Assembly (NCBI GenBank): GCA_013696315.1
Contig: JACCYU010000150.1
Coordinates: 1 to 39,193 of the forward strand
Direction: 5' to 3'
From: Gammaproteobacteria bacterium
Lineage (GTDB): Bacteria > Pseudomonadota > Gammaproteobacteria > JACCYU01
Length of the DNA stretch: 39,193 nucleotides
In this document: positions 4,429 to 10,634 of the stretch, piece after piece
Layout of the letters: every line of letters starts with the position of its first letter
How positions within the stretch are numbered: position 1 is the first letter of the stretch
Made by a program: the position numbers and the translations under genes
The notes under the pieces: generated by a model
Database searches by the model: none
The model's input: only the letters and a program-made list of their open reading frames with translations
Told to the model about the DNA's origin: nothing

Positions 4429-4965
4429 CTAGGCGGAACTACCGGGAGATTTGCAGTAGATGATTTTGTCGTCGCCCACGGCGTAAAAATTCCTCAGACG
4501 CGCGGCCTGGAGAAAACCGGCGTGGCGATAGAATAAACGGGTGGGCCGGTATTGCGCGCGCGACGAGGTCTCCGCATACATCTGCCGCCCGCCGTGGTCG
4601 TGTATGAGTTGCTCTGTGCGCATCAGCAGACGGGTGCCAACTCCCTGGCCCTGATACGCGTTATCGACCACAATCCAGTACAGGTCGAAACTGGCCTCGG
4701 TGCACGGCACGCGACCGAAGCAGGTGTAGCCGCACATCGCGCCGTCGTGCTCGGCCAGCAGAAATGAATAACCGCTGACGGCGCCTTGGTTGAACGCGAC
4801 CTCGACCAGTTCCACCGCGACGTCAACTTCACTCACAGAGAAGAAACCGGTCGCGGCCGTCACGCTTCGCACGTCGTCGATATCCTGCTGGCGCAATTTA
4901 GTTCGAAGCATGAGCGCGCTGGCGGATCGCGCGGCCATTGCGTCCGCTGATTCAGACTTTCGCAT
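4429..4965 (-). CDS. GNAT N-acetyltransferase, last gene of the kamA operon
   Basis: A 178-residue single-domain GNAT acetyltransferase. The acetyl-CoA loop is visible as VDNAYQGQGVGTRLL (Q-x-G-x-G type), preceded by the beta-strand FDLYWIVV. The C-terminal FYRHAGF segment is typical of the fold. The gene start overlaps the end of the GNAT/deacetylase fusion gene by 14 bp, so translation is probably coupled. With kamA in the operon, the closest known pairing is AblA/AblB, where a GNAT acetylates beta-lysine to N-epsilon-acetyl-beta-lysine, but AblB proteins are longer and homology was not tested. Met 19 is an alternative start. The substrate is inferred from context. Confidence 0.85.
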   Translation of the reverse strand: MRKSESADAMAARSASALMLRTKLRQQDIDDVRSVTAATGFFSVSEVDVAVELVEVAFNQGAVSGYSFLLAEHDGAMCGYTCFGRVPCTEASFDLYWIVVDNAYQGQGVGTRLLMRTEQLIHDHGGRQMYAETSSRAQYRPTRLFYRHAGFLQAARLRNFYAVGDDKIIYCKSPGSSA

Positions 4966-6790
4966 GCGCGGCGGCGCGCGTCAGCAGCGCGGGCTGCTCG
5001 GCTTCGGCGAGTCCAAGAAAAAAATGCCGTGCGTTCACACCCAGCGATCGCGTGCGATAACCGCCCTCCTGCACCACCAGGGTAGGCAGGCGCAAACCGC
5101 CGATCATGCGTCCGTTGAGCTGGAAATCCTTTGCACGCAAAGTAAATGAACTGGTCGGGTCACCGCGCGCGGTATCCAGCCCCAGCGCCAGCACCAGATA
5201 AGCCGGATTGAATTTACGGATCCGCGCGAGCGCCTTGCTCAATGCCTCGCGGAATTTCTCGCCGTCCAGCCCTTCCGGGAGTGGAATATTGACATTGAAA
5301 CCACGGCCGACGCCTTCGCCTTTTTCGTCGTCGAAACCGCTGAAATACGGATAAGAGACCCGCGGGTGCCCGTGCACCGACACGGTCAGCACATCGGCAC
5401 GGTCGTAGAAAATGTCCTGTGTGCCGTTGCCGTGATGGTAATCCACGTCCAGCACCGCCACGCGACCGTAATGGCTCAACTGATGCGCGGCCACGGCGGA
5501 AGAATTGAAATAGCAGAAGCCGCCGAAGCTGTCGCGCTCCGCGTGGTGTCCCGGCGGTCGCACCAGTGCGTACGCCAGGGTGTACCCCTGCAGCAGACAT
5601 TCCGCGCCCGTCAGCGCGCAGTCGACGGCGCCGATTGCCGCCTTGTAAGCGTTCTGATTGAGCGGCGTAAACGTGTCGATGCAGTAGTAACCCGCGCGCA
5701 GCGGCAGATCTTCGGGCACGCGCGCATGATTGCGCAGCGGAAACACGTACGGGTACACGGACTTTCCCTCCGGCACGCGCGCGTAGGCGTTCTTTAGGTA
5801 GTCGACGTAATCCTTGTCGTGTACCGCCTTGATGTAGTCAAGCGCGAAGTGCCGCGCCGGCAGGTGCTCGAACAGCGAAGTCGCATCGATCTCCTTGATG
5901 ATGGAGTCTATGCGCACCGGCGCTTGTACGTACCCCCGCTCGCGCACGTGGTGGATCGAATGCTTGTCGTTGACGATCAGCGCAATAGGTCGGGCGCGCA
6001 CCGGTGCGCCCTGCGCGGGCCCGGCCGCGGCTTTCGGTTCGTACCGCGGCGGGCGCAGTTGCACCGGATCGTCGCGAAAGGAGTTGATCACCTTATCGAT
6101 ATATTCCGGGGGACAGATCTTGCCGTACTTGCGTTCGAGAATGGCGCGCACCACCGAGCGGGCGTATACGCGCCGCAGCGGCGCTTTGCCGCCGAGTCCG
6201 TCGAACACCAGATAAGGCGGGTCGGTCACACCTTCCCTCAGCGGGGTTTCGTACGCGGTGTTGGCGATCGGCCTCGCACCGTAGTGCTCATAGAATTTCA
6301 GCCGCGCAACTCGCGCAGCCGCGCGGCCAGAATATCGTAATGGAACTCCGCGTTGGTGAAATACCAGTGGGTCGACATTCTGAGCGCGAATCTTGTCATC
6401 GGGAGAGAGTTCCGGGTCGTCGGGCAGACACTCGAAAAAAAGTCCCTTCGCCTCCAGCGAACGCGACTCTTCGCGCACGCGCTGGTAAAGCGCGCCACCG
6501 GTGCCGCCACCAGTGCCGCCGCGCGCCGCCGAGAGGAAATCCAGGTAGCAGAAATGCAGCTCCGGATCGTGCAACACCAGCGCGAACCCCAGTACCTGAG
6601 CGCGCGCATCCTCCGCTACGAACAGGATCGCGCGAAACCGATGTTTGTGCGGGCTCTTCAACTGTTGCGGCAGTTTGACGATGTCCGCCTCGTCCAGCGC
6701 CTGAAACTGCGTACGAAGAATCGCCTGCACCTGCGCGAGCGACGCCTTGTTGACGTTTGTGTCGTCGTGGATCTTACGGATGCGAAACAT
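4952..6790 (-). CDS. GNAT domain fused to a histone-deacetylase-family amidohydrolase
   Basis: A 612-residue two-domain protein. Residues ~1-180 form a GNAT-like domain with beta strand FCYLDFLS and a Gly-rich acetyl-CoA loop (RGGTGGGTGGALYQR, ~90-104). Residues ~265-600 are an HDAC/acetylpolyamine-amidohydrolase domain with an apparently complete site: RPPGHHAE (His 415/416), zinc ligands D450 and H452 in DVDYHHGNG, D539 in LGLDTARGDP, and catalytic Tyr 578 in QEGGY. One chain could therefore both add and remove acetyl groups from a small amine substrate. It overlaps the upstream ATP-grasp gene by 17 bp and the downstream GNAT gene by 14 bp. Histone-like protein targets are unlikely in this operon; an acetylated lysine-derived metabolite is the inferred substrate. 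Confidence 0.88.
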   Translation of the reverse strand: MFRIRKIHDDTNVNKASLAQVQAILRTQFQALDEADIVKLPQQLKSPHKHRFRAILFVAEDARAQVLGFALVLHDPELHFCYLDFLSAARGGTGGGTGGALYQRVREESRSLEAKGLFFECLPDDPELSPDDKIRAQNVDPLVFHQRGVPLRYSGRAAARVARLKFYEHYGARPIANTAYETPLREGVTDPPYLVFDGLGGKAPLRRVYARSVVRAILERKYGKICPPEYIDKVINSFRDDPVQLRPPRYEPKAAAGPAQGAPVRARPIALIVNDKHSIHHVRERGYVQAPVRIDSIIKEIDATSLFEHLPARHFALDYIKAVHDKDYVDYLKNAYARVPEGKSVYPYVFPLRNHARVPEDLPLRAGYYCIDTFTPLNQNAYKAAIGAVDCALTGAECLLQGYTLAYALVRPPGHHAERDSFGGFCYFNSSAVAAHQLSHYGRVAVLDVDYHHGNGTQDIFYDRADVLTVSVHGHPRVSYPYFSGFDDEKGEGVGRGFNVNIPLPEGLDGEKFREALSKALARIRKFNPAYLVLALGLDTARGDPTSSFTLRAKDFQLNGRMIGGLRLPTLVVQEGGYRTRSLGVNARHFFLGLAEAEQPALLTRAAAHAKV

Positions 6791-7751
6791 GGTTTACGAT
6801 GCGCTCGATGACTTCATCATAGGAGAACCCGGCTCGGCGCCCCGCGGCGGCGAAGCCCGCGTCGGGCGCAAGACAGGGATTCGCGTTGACCTCCAAAACC
6901 CAGGGACGGCCCGCTTCGTCCACTCTGAAATCGACGCGCGCGTAGCCCCGGCATTCGAGCAGTGACCAACAGCGTCCTGCGATTTCACCGAGCGTCTTCA
7001 GCAATGGATAATCGTGTGCGCCGAAATTAAACGTTCGCGGCGTGTGCACGCTCTCGAATGAATCCAGCTGCCATTTCGCCGCGTAACCGACGATGCGCGG
7101 CTTGTGGCTCGGGAAATCTTTGAACTGTATTTCCGCGGGCGGCAATACTTGCGGGCCGTTCGTATTGTCGATCAGCGCGATGTTGAACTCGCGTCCATCG
7201 ACGTATTGTTCCGCGAACCATTCGCCCCCCAATCGTTCTCGTCGCGCGGCCAGCATTTCGCTCACATAACGCGTATCGACCACACTCTGGTCGTCGATGC
7301 CGATCGAGGCGTGTTCCCATACCGATTTGATTATCCAGCGGTCGCCAGCGGCAGCCTCCGACGCCGAGGTGTCCGCGCGCCAGTCCGGCGTGTCGATGTC
7401 GCAGAGGCGCAGCAGGCGCTTTGCCAACAGTTTGCTGGACGACATAAATAAAGCGGTCGACGAAGCGCCGGTATACGGCACCATCGTTTCTTCCAGCAGT
7501 GCGGCGCCGAGAGGGCAGAAACGCCCGCGCCCGTCCAGCGATTCGACCAGGTTGAATACGAACGCCGGTCGTTGCTGCTGAAGGCGTGCGCGCGCGGCGT
7601 CGAGATTCAGGCTGACGGACAACGTTGCAACGGCATAACCCAGCCGCTTCAGCGCCGAAGCCACGGCCTCGACTTCGATCAGCACATCCTGCTCGTCGGG
7701 CAGTGCATCCTCGGCGAGCGCGCCGTACAAAATGGTGACAGGTGAAATCAC
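6774..7751 (-). CDS. ATP-grasp ligase, D-Ala-D-Ala-ligase-like (second of two)
   Basis: A 325-residue ATP-grasp carboxylate-amine ligase. Visible elements are an N-terminal pre-ATP-grasp domain with FNLVESLDGRG (~66-76), SSSKLLAKRLL (~104-114), and the C-terminal Mg-binding segment ARVDFRVDEAGRPWVLEVNA with D274, E287 and N289. It has the D-Ala-D-Ala-ligase layout but is clearly different from its upstream paralogue. The start is GTG 7751, since an in-frame stop lies just upstream; no good ribosome site is seen. It follows the first ligase after a 95-bp gap and overlaps the GNAT/deacetylase gene by 17 bp. It probably joins an amino acid to an amine or amino acid using ATP. Housekeeping peptidoglycan Ddl is unlikely because no mur or fts genes are nearby. 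Confidence 0.85.
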   Translation of the reverse strand: MISPVTILYGALAEDALPDEQDVLIEVEAVASALKRLGYAVATLSVSLNLDAARARLQQQRPAFVFNLVESLDGRGRFCPLGAALLEETMVPYTGASSTALFMSSSKLLAKRLLRLCDIDTPDWRADTSASEAAAGDRWIIKSVWEHASIGIDDQSVVDTRYVSEMLAARRERLGGEWFAEQYVDGREFNIALIDNTNGPQVLPPAEIQFKDFPSHKPRIVGYAAKWQLDSFESVHTPRTFNFGAHDYPLLKTLGEIAGRCWSLLECRGYARVDFRVDEAGRPWVLEVNANPCLAPDAGFAAAGRRAGFSYDEVIERIVNHVSHP

Positions 7752-7846: not shown

Positions 7847-8860
7847 CTATGCCGCCTCGACGTCGGCCATGCTCAATGCGGCCGACGATTCGGTGCGTTG
7901 CAGCGCGGAGTTCACGATCATGCCGATGAGCGCCTGATAATCGATACCGTTGAGCCGGCAGAGAATTGCGAGATCGGAGATCTCGGGATTGAGTCCCGCC
8001 AGCGGGTTGACCTCGATAAAATTCGGGACGCCGTCCGCATCCAGGCGCAAGTCGATGCGCCCGCCGTCGCGGCAGCACAAGCTCCGCCAGGCGCTCAACG
8101 CCACTTGCCCAAGCGAGCGCGCGAGCTCGCCTTCGGTCAGTCGATACTCCACCCGCCCCTCGAAGCGCGCCTTGTTATTGTAACTATACGCACCGGGTTC
8201 GGCCGAGGCGCCAAGCAACACTTCCATCGCACCCAGTATCCGCGCCTCACGGCCTGTACCGATCACGCCGACCGTGAATTCGCGCCCGGGCAGATACGTT
8301 TCGACCAGCACCGGCTGGCGATAACGCACCAGCAAATCCCGGCACACGGTGTTGAGTTGTTTAGCCGAGCTGATTCTGGATACGGCGTCTATGCCTTTGC
8401 CTGTGCCTTCCGCCACCGGCTTGGCGAACAACGGATAAGGCAGATCGATCGCGGCTAGATCCGACAGTGCCTCGATCAACGCGAAGTCCGCCGTCGGCAC
8501 CCCGCAGTCGCGCACCACGCGCTTGGTCATGCCCTTGTGCAAGGCGAGCGACAGCGCCATGGGGTCGGAGAATGTGTACGGAATACGCCACGCATCCAGC
8601 AGCGCGGGAATCTGCGCCTCGCGACCGAAGCCGTAGAGTCCTTCGGCGATATTGAAAACCAGATCCCAGCGATCGCCCGCGACCAGGCGCGCGGCGAGTT
8701 GTTTAACGTTACCGATCGATTCCGGCGTGTGACCGAGTTCGCGCAGCGCGTCGGCGATCGCCCGGATGGTGTCAGGGCGATCGAACTCGGCGACCTCTTC
8801 TTCCGTAAACCCTGCGGCGAAGTATGCTTCCTTGAGGTCGAACGTAATACCTACGCGCAC
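7847..8860 (-). CDS. ATP-grasp ligase, D-Ala-D-Ala-ligase-like (first of two)
   Basis: A 337-residue ATP-grasp ligase. FNIAEGLYGFGREAQIPALL (~69-88) corresponds to the substrate-loop EG motif of D-Ala-D-Ala ligases. AKPVAEGTGKGI (~146-157) is the ATP-binding loop, VETYLPGREFTVGVIG follows, and the metal site is RIDLRLDADG..FIEVNP with D270, E283 and N285. ATG 8860 overlaps the 3' end of kamA by 10 bp, which points to coupled translation and a shared pathway. The likely reaction is ATP-dependent amide-bond formation; with KamA next door, beta-lysine or lysine is a candidate substrate. Two non-identical ligases in one operon suggest two successive condensations or different partners. Confidence 0.87.
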   Translation of the reverse strand: MRVGITFDLKEAYFAAGFTEEEVAEFDRPDTIRAIADALRELGHTPESIGNVKQLAARLVAGDRWDLVFNIAEGLYGFGREAQIPALLDAWRIPYTFSDPMALSLALHKGMTKRVVRDCGVPTADFALIEALSDLAAIDLPYPLFAKPVAEGTGKGIDAVSRISSAKQLNTVCRDLLVRYRQPVLVETYLPGREFTVGVIGTGREARILGAMEVLLGASAEPGAYSYNNKARFEGRVEYRLTEGELARSLGQVALSAWRSLCCRDGGRIDLRLDADGVPNFIEVNPLAGLNPEISDLAILCRLNGIDYQALIGMIVNSALQRTESSAALSMADVEAA

Positions 8861-10209
8861 GACGGCGACTTCACGCGGCGGTCACGGCGCCGCGGATGTT
8901 TGTCCCTGCCGAGAATGCCGTGCGGATCGGGATAGCGATAAACCTTGCCCTCGTAGTTGGTCAGCAGCAGGTCATCGCCATCGCGTCCCAGCACGTAATC
9001 CGGCAGCAGCGGAATCTTGCCGCCACCGCCGGGGCCATCGACGACGTATGACGGCACCGCATAGCCCGTGGTGTGGCCGCGCAGACCGCGGATTATCTCC
9101 AGGCCCTTGTCCACGGTGGTGCGGAAATGCGCCGAGCCGGAAATCGGATCGCACTGATAGAGATAATATGGCTTTACACGCACCTTGAGCAGACCGTGCA
9201 CCAGTTGCGTCATGGTCGCTACGTCGTCATTGACCCCTTTCAGGAGCACGGTCTGACTGCCCAGCGGAACACCGGCGTCCGCCAGACGATTGCAGGCCTC
9301 GGCGACCTCCGGCGTCAATTCATCCGGGTGCGTAAAGTGCAGACTCATCCACAGCGGATGATATTTCTTGAGGATGCCGACCAGCGCCGGCGTTACGCGC
9401 TGCGGCATCACGGCGGGCTGCTTGGTGCCGATGCGCAGGAACTCCACGTGCGGTATGGCGCGCAGCCGGCTTAAGATAAAGTCGAGACGATCGTCGTCCA
9501 GACTTAGAGGATCGCCGCCGGAGAGCAGCACATCGCGGATCGTCGGCGTGGCGGCGATGTAATCGATCGCCCGCTCGATGTCACTTTTCTTCAGGCTGAG
9601 CTCGCCGGCCGCGCCGACCAGACGCGAGCGCGTGCAGTAACGGCAGTATGTCGAACAGAAGTTCGTAACCAGGAACAGCACGCGGTCCGGATAGCGATGC
9701 ACCAGGCCCGGCACCGGGCTGTCGCCGTCCTCGCCCAGCGGATCGTCGGCCTCGCCGGGTGCGCGAATATATTCGCCGCCCGCCGGCACGACCGTACGCC
9801 GCAGCGGCTGCGCGGGATCGATCTCGTCGAGCAGGCTTGCATAATAGGGCGGAATGCCGACCGGTAACGGCCCGTTGTGGCGCGCGATCGCATCGCGCTC
9901 ATCTTCCGAGAGGATAACGATCCGTGCCAGCGCGTCGGCCGAGCGTACGCGGTTGCGGTTCTGCCAGCGCCAGTCGTTCCATTCGCTGACCGAGACGTTG
10001 GGGTAGTGACGTTTTCTAAATGCGTTGGTGCGTGCGCTGATGGTCAGGCGCGGTCCACGGCGATTCGATTTGGCTGGTTTGCGCGAGGGAATGCAGGAAC
10101 GTAGCGGCGGAAGCGGTACGGTGGCCGGTGCGCCGGCGCGGAAGTCCAGAATGGTAGAGCTACGCTCGGGGGGCTCTTCGTTATCAGAATAGAACAAATC
10201 GTTTTTCAT
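8851..10209 (-). CDS. kamA: Lysine 2,3-aminomutase (KamA-type radical SAM/PLP enzyme)
   Basis: A 452-residue radical-SAM aminomutase converting L-lysine to beta-lysine. The [4Fe-4S]/SAM motif is CSTYCRYC (C185, C189, C192). The PLP lysine is K398 in PGGGGKIP. The two Asp residues that bind the substrate epsilon-amino group in the clostridial enzyme are present as D354 and D391, with exactly its spacing (D293/D330/K337), so lysine rather than glutamate is the expected substrate. A ~60-residue basic, Pro-rich N-terminal extension is unusual. ATG 10209 is chosen because GAGGA sits seven bases upstream; an in-frame GTG at 10248 has its Shine-Dalgarno too close. EpmB of EF-P modification is related but shorter, and no epmA or efp is nearby. 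First gene of the five-gene operon. Confidence 0.93.
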   Translation of the reverse strand: MKNDLFYSDNEEPPERSSTILDFRAGAPATVPLPPLRSCIPSRKPAKSNRRGPRLTISARTNAFRKRHYPNVSVSEWNDWRWQNRNRVRSADALARIVILSEDERDAIARHNGPLPVGIPPYYASLLDEIDPAQPLRRTVVPAGGEYIRAPGEADDPLGEDGDSPVPGLVHRYPDRVLFLVTNFCSTYCRYCTRSRLVGAAGELSLKKSDIERAIDYIAATPTIRDVLLSGGDPLSLDDDRLDFILSRLRAIPHVEFLRIGTKQPAVMPQRVTPALVGILKKYHPLWMSLHFTHPDELTPEVAEACNRLADAGVPLGSQTVLLKGVNDDVATMTQLVHGLLKVRVKPYYLYQCDPISGSAHFRTTVDKGLEIIRGLRGHTTGYAVPSYVVDGPGGGGKIPLLPDYVLGRDGDDLLLTNYEGKVYRYPDPHGILGRDKHPRRRDRRVKSPSCA

Positions 10210-10634
10210 TATGGATTCCTCGTACCGTGCATTTGATAAGGAGGCCACAGACCTCCCGCGTCAGTTTATCCACCGCCGTAGACGTGTCTTAAACGCTGCC
10301 TTTCGACGCTTCCCCGCAACTGACTTACGCGCGAGTATTGCGCGCTTTTATAGACTTATCTCGCAAAAATTCAATAGGCTGAAGGTAAAATCCAAAGGTT
10401 TTTCGCGAACCGGTGACCAGCGGTAACATAGAGGTAATAAACGGCGTATCGAGCTCGTTCCACTAGCGCGACAAAGGGGATAGTTCGCGCGTTTCACCAC
10501 ACTGGCAAAAGCATGGAGTCGGCTCCATAGACCTGGGAAAACAGGAACCAGATCCGCGCCCGGCGGCGCGTTCAAGCCAATGGTTTTATTGTAGGTTTAC
10601 CGGTGGGTTTACAGGAACCACGCTCAGTCTCGCC
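10210..10634. other. Intergenic region between dsbB and the kamA operon
   Basis: About 425 bp without a convincing gene. It holds the kamA promoter candidate, an implied leader of about 130 nt, a small palindrome ATGGAG-TCGG-CTCCAT (10513-10528), and a 10-bp direct repeat ACAGGAACCA at 10541-10550 and 10611-10620, exactly 70 bp apart. No T-tract terminator for dsbB is apparent. Confidence 0.5.
10347..10374 (-). promoter_or_regulatory. Candidate sigma-70 promoter of the kamA operon
   Basis: Reading leftward, TTGAAT (10374-10369) and TATAAA (10352-10347) are separated by 16 bp, close to sigma-70 consensus. Transcription would start near 10340, leaving about 130 nt of leader before the kamA ATG. 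Confidence 0.5.

Follow-up and report, generated by a model that had tools for sequence, protein, structure and literature searches.

In the window, i.e. the whole stretch of 39,193 nucleotides analysed here, one gene encodes a 612-residue protein in which a GNAT acetyltransferase domain is joined to a zinc-containing deacylase domain of the HDAC/acetylpolyamine amidohydrolase (APAH) type. Relatives of this fusion protein retain the active sites of both halves, and their genes mostly lie beside those of a putative beta-lysine peptide pathway, while the window copy carries a short gyrB-derived insert in its GNAT half. We give about an even chance to the explanation that the fusion is a bifunctional enzyme, performing the opposing acetylation and deacetylation of a small amine on one chain.

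Domain architecture and the deacylase half

The fusion gene occupies 4952..6790 on the minus strand as one open reading frame, with its ATG at 6790. Residues 1 to about 200 (6190..6790, minus strand) form the GNAT domain, which is followed by a helical linker reaching to about residue 260 and then by the deacylase (residues ~266-595), whose HDAC/APAH domain as delimited by Pfam covers residues 289-591 (5018..5926, minus strand). The model of the full window chain reached a pTM of 0.61. The first-pass annotation of this DNA had placed GNAT and HDAC-type domains in a single chain, and both proved to be real. Chance or a frame artefact as the origin of the fusion is ruled out by the relatives encoded in at least 452 stretches of DNA from GTDB species genomes.

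The deacylase half matches the PF00850 HDAC domain with E=4.2e-73. The zinc site predicted in the first pass (D450, H452, D539 and Y578) lies exactly there and is invariant in the family: the His dyad H415/H416 and the zinc ligands D450/H452/D539 are found in 94 of 94 homologues, and Y578 in 93 of them, the remaining sequence being truncated. The closest solved structures, by sequence and by fold, are bacterial acetylpolyamine amidohydrolases (6phr, E=1.7e-75), and APAHs were the top PDB matches of the deacylase fold, with target TM-scores of 0.82-0.89.

The acetyltransferase half

The N-domain follows the GNAT order of secondary structure elements (beta1-alpha1-alpha2-beta2-4-alpha3-beta5-alpha4-beta6-7). 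Its glycine loop, previously put at about residues 90-104, is motif A and spans residues 89-103 (ARGGTGGGTGGALYQ); where GNATs usually begin this motif with R/Q, most members of the fusion family have Thr. Both motif A glycines and the motif B tyrosine are present throughout (G96, G98 and Y167 in 94/94 homologues), as is R163, and E120 occurs in 93/94.

In the window copy the N-domain scores below the Pfam curated cut-off (PF00583, 15.1 bits versus 20.7, E=0.028). That it might for this reason not be a GNAT at all is ruled out by a family-wide scan and a fold search. When 30 members of the fusion family were scanned singly, 27 matched PF00583 (E<=0.01; best 1.7e-8). In the AF2 model of the N-domain from the sister species (pLDDT 88.5), strands and helices succeed one another as in GNATs. 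The best PDB matches of this model were GNATs, including GCN5, SpeG, RimI and AAC(6'), at target TM-scores mostly of 0.5-0.77. The check proposed in the first pass, i.e. structure prediction and alignment of the N-domain to GNATs, thus found a GNAT fold, and together with the family-wide PF00583 matches it means that the original GNAT call was right. The dual-activity idea was to fail if the N-domain lacked a usable acetyl-CoA site. Such a lack was not found for the family, but it is conceivable for the window copy, with its insert in helix 4.

A gyrB-derived insert in the window copy

The insert is 66 bp long and in frame (6308..6373, minus strand), and it encodes residues 140-161 (22 residues) within GNAT helix alpha4. 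It is nearly identical to a segment of the genome's own gyrB, located on another contig (G000:C52:2623-2688; 66/67 identical), from which it differs by one extra T, and it is because of this T that the reading frame is kept. Residues 140-161 are absent from 80 of 80 aligned relatives, the insert being unique to the window genome. The sister species (G001), about 95% identical, has an empty site: its sequence reads AATATC followed directly by GCGCGGCTG, and that of the window reads AATGTC, the 66 bp and then GCGCGGCTG. The insert has a strong predicted fold (z -3.9). An origin as a palindromic mobile element was considered and rejected, as the sole near-identical copy lies inside gyrB.

In the model of the sister protein alpha4 is unbroken (residues 132-146), and in the window model it is broken, with the confidence falling below 50 at residues 138-158. 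The weak Pfam score of the window copy is largely due to the insert. As the insert lies in alpha4 and is absent from the sister species, the acetyltransferase half of the window copy may be impaired; since it keeps every invariant GNAT residue, this would be a weakening and not a loss of the domain.

A stronger version of this reading holds that the insert has killed the GNAT half and that the window protein is a deacetylase only. The splitting of alpha4 between N138 and R163/Y167, the low model confidence over the insert, the insert-free sister species and the failure of Pfam to recognise the domain all point in this direction. However, the insert is in frame and has no stop codon, every invariant GNAT residue is still present, and the domain may fold with a long loop. 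Moreover, the genome is a draft and the insert may be an assembly error, although the preserved frame and the one-base difference from gyrB would argue somewhat against a plain chimera. We therefore treat a dead GNAT half in this copy as a real possibility, though not the one we favour; it is compatible with a bifunctional enzyme as the best explanation for the family.

Distribution and co-conservation of the two domains

The fusion is old and widespread. According to the record titles, the best 80 of at least 452 loci come from Gamma-, Alpha- and Deltaproteobacteria, Chloroflexi, Calditrichaeota, Acidobacteria, Planctomycetes, Nitrospiraceae, Bacillota, Ignavibacteria and KSB1. They belong mainly to metagenome bins, the isolates including Desulfofustis glycolicus and Desulfacinum infernum. 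A search of plasmids returned matches to the deacylase domain only, and no full-length fusion. One genome (G098) has two fusion paralogues at separate places (L114, L115), neither of them beside pathway genes.

Among 276 gammaproteobacterial genomes the full fusion was found in 14, and the GNAT domain in exactly the same 14, never without the deacylase. Distances within the GNAT domain correlate with those within the deacylase domain (r=0.76, 4278 pairs). Invariant sites, co-occurrence and correlated distances are what would be expected of two domains that are both in use and co-evolve. It had been proposed that one of the domains could be a binding module only; the invariance of both active sites in 94 homologues argues against this for the family.

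Gene neighbourhood

Five genes of the window lie on one strand in the order KamA-ATPgrasp1-ATPgrasp2-fusion-GNAT2, and the pairs KamA/ATP-grasp 1, ATP-grasp 2/fusion and fusion/GNAT2 overlap. The first gene (8851..10248, minus strand) encodes a radical SAM aminomutase of the KamA family, which most resembles lysine 2,3-aminomutase but scores below the TIGR03820 equivalog cut-off (475.7 vs 525.4 bits). Its CxxxCxxC cluster site (C198/C202/C205) is invariant in 14 sequences, as are D367 and D404, which we take to be equivalent to the lysine-binding Asp pair. Both ligases contain the Dala_Dala_lig_C domain: ATP-grasp 1 (337 aa; 7847..8860, minus strand), with K109, K147, E187, D270, E283 and N285 invariant in 12 sequences, and ATP-grasp 2 (325 aa; 6774..7751, minus strand; 17 bp overlap with the fusion gene), with K107, K142, E181, D274, E287 and N289 invariant in 11. 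The second, free-standing GNAT noticed in the first pass is also real (GNAT2, 178 aa; 4429..4965, minus strand; 14 bp overlap with the fusion gene; PF13508, 1e-11). In four loci (L029, L077, L078 and L126) the fusion protein is extended C-terminally by GNAT2, which gives a GNAT-deacylase-GNAT2 chain of 751-777 residues.

The operon partners (the aminomutase, the two ATP-grasps and the second GNAT) are conserved neighbours of the fusion. At least one of them lies near it in 53 of the best 80 of at least 452 loci, and in 52 of these 53 all partner genes are on the same strand. Within the same set of 80, the exact gene order of the window recurs in 20 loci and GNAT2 precedes the fusion in 13. In 26 genomes the fusion stands apart in its locus; 22 of them have a strong match to ATP-grasp 1 elsewhere (E<1e-80), usually in tandem with a second ATP-grasp. 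In another locus (L124:4177-6120, genome G036) a protein composed of a methyltransferase and a Dala_Dala_lig_C ATP-grasp is encoded divergently, about 90 bp from the fusion gene.

Link to the beta-lysine pathway

With a presence threshold of E<=1e-60, ATP-grasp 1 was found in 11 of the 276 gammaproteobacterial genomes, in five of them together with the fusion and in six without it. The five co-occurrences compare with 0.56 expected (hypergeometric P=6e-5, uncorrected for kinship). In the other nine of the 14 fusion-bearing genomes ATP-grasp 1 was not found at this threshold, nor was a lysine-type aminomutase, only KamA relatives of EpmB level; their ATP-grasp matches were of Ddl level or lay within an unrelated two-gene arrangement. 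The latter accounts for the strong ATP-grasp matches in three of these genomes, which were rejected as evidence of the pathway: they are ATP-grasp 2 relatives (L131, L132, L133), and the other gene of their conserved two-gene arrangement encodes a protein of ~345 residues. We looked for recurrent conserved partners of the stand-alone fusion and found none. As the fusion is present in genomes without the beta-lysine pathway, it must have a role outside this pathway.

These data bear on the role put forward in the first pass, summarised as 'acetylate, ligate, deacetylate'. According to this proposal, the GNAT domain would acetylate one amino group of beta-lysine as a protecting group, the ATP-grasps would carry out the ligation at its other end, and deprotection by the deacylase would follow, so that a single peptide isomer is channelled. 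The conserved operon, the overlapping genes in the window, the linkage across many phyla, the lysine-type Asp pair retained by KamA and the conserved residues retained by both ATP-grasps are all in line with it. On the other hand, nine of the 14 fusion genomes have no ATP-grasp 1 match at E<=1e-60 and only EpmB-level aminomutases. Six genomes have ATP-grasp 1 but no fusion, among them at least three in which the only GNAT that accompanies the pathway genes, as a neighbour or as a fused part, is of the GNAT2 type. As a general role the proposal is thus unsupported, and it describes at most part of what the fusion does; we consider it unlikely.

Two further observations concern ATP-grasp genes. 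In a relative without the acetyltransferase-deacylase fusion (L128:5259-7271) an ATP-grasp and a GNAT form one protein, whose gene adjoins KamA, and in genome G150 (C3:19201-20124) a 651-residue frame matches the ATP-grasp 2 profile. The AblA/AblB osmolyte pathway was rejected as an interpretation of the window operon, as no match to AblB (TIGR03827) was found in the window genome, while control genomes do match.

Substrate pocket of the deacylase

The fusion deacylase shares its fold with the bacterial APAHs, 'cluster 4' of a survey of bacterial deacylases (PMC11532494), such as those of Mycoplana ramosa (3q9b) and Marinobacter subterrani (msAPAH, 6phr) and Pseudomonas PsApaH (9gkz). It also has in common with them the His dyad, the zinc ligands and the RPPGHH and EGGY motifs, at about 35-40% identity in structural alignments. 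Unlike these enzymes, it is joined to a GNAT domain, is encoded in an operon of the kind described above and differs in the pocket. In APAH, E117 binds N4 of the polyamine (PMC5454378). This residue aligns with F374, which is invariant in 94 members, and E106 of the M. ramosa enzyme aligns with a Pro. The PIS motif, which the survey gives as a feature of bacterial polyamine deacetylases (PMC11532494), is PT in the fusion family, with T546 in 94/94; R353 is invariant as well. With E117 replaced by Phe and PIS by PT, the enzyme probably acts on something other than an ordinary polyamine. Judged from sequence, some other acetylated amine of small size seems a likelier substrate than an ordinary acetylpolyamine, and beta-lysine or its peptides would fit in the linked loci.

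Proposed function

The analysis shows the folds, the fusion, the invariant active sites, the gene linkage and the insert, while both activities, a common substrate and the identity of this substrate are inferred. We propose that the GNAT domain would use acetyl-CoA to modify a small basic metabolite at an amino group, with acetyl or a short acyl group of similar kind, and that the APAH-type zinc domain would remove that group, the balance of the two activities setting the charge or availability of the metabolite. For the majority of the linked loci, this metabolite would be part of a beta-lysine peptide pathway with an aminomutase, two ATP-grasps and the second GNAT; in other genomes the fusion must act on a different amine or on a more general one. 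In the window genome the insert in helix 4 may have weakened or inactivated the GNAT half, in which case mainly the deacetylase would be left. A more specific form of this proposal, which we advance tentatively, is a self-contained switch, set by the acetyl-CoA level, in which one and the same small amine, a beta-lysine peptide or other, both receives the acetyl group and is freed of it.

GNATs as a group use a wide variety of acceptors and acyl donors, and the terms 'acetyl' and 'same substrate' are therefore assumptions. The same variety, together with a deacylase pocket that differs from those of characterised polyamine deacetylases, speaks for a reading in which the two domains act sequentially on different bonds or acyl groups, or on a diacetylated intermediate, and are not truly opposing. 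We think this improbable; the bifunctional enzyme, with both activities presumably directed at one small amine, is the reading we prefer. No biochemistry of the fusion family was found in the literature searched. Sequence alone does not separate the bifunctional enzyme from the protecting-group route, from unrelated acyl reactions or from the modification of a protein discussed below.

Relation to known systems

The same opposing activities, encoded together, are known from acuA/acuC of Bacillus, in which a GNAT and an HDAC-type deacetylase act on acetyl-CoA synthetase. In contrast to the fusion, AcuA and AcuC are two separate proteins, and we know of no ATP-grasp or aminomutase genes adjoining acuA/acuC. 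As a bifunctional enzyme the fusion would work like AcuA and AcuC joined into a single protein. By analogy, the fusion might acetylate and deacetylate a protein lysine. The resemblance of the opposing pair to acuA/acuC favours this idea, which would also account for the pathway-free genomes, and some APAH-type enzymes deacetylate lysine peptides too (PMC11532494). However, the genes that recur beside the fusion encode ligases of small molecules and no protein target, and we regard a protein switch as quite unlikely.

The ablA/ablB system, which synthesises the osmolyte N-epsilon-acetyl-beta-lysine, likewise combines lysine 2,3-aminomutase with a GNAT. The window differs from it in having no AblB match and in the addition of two ATP-grasp ligases and the deacylase fusion. 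A forward and a reverse reaction are combined on one polypeptide as a switch, as we propose here for the fusion, in two-way enzymes of the kinase/phosphatase and synthetase/hydrolase kinds, such as PFK-2/FBPase-2, Rel/SpoT and GlnE. In the literature searched we found no example of a fused acetyltransferase/deacetylase switch comparable to PFK-2/FBPase-2. Nor was a description of the fusion or its operon found in the searchable literature; an earlier mention is possible, e.g. in a survey of ATP-grasps (Iyer and colleagues, 2009). The available text of the bacterial deacylase survey (PMC11532494) yielded no GNAT fusion under the terms GNAT, fusion and domain architecture. Both domain types are already known; what is new is the fused, doubly conserved opposing pair, for which priority is not established.

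As the fused opposing domains are intact across many phyla, a two-way acetylation switch, and the amine on which it acts, become directly testable. A beta-lysine peptide that has yet to be described is suggested by the linked aminomutase and ligases, and the fusion constitutes a ready marker for locating both the acetylation switch and the peptide.
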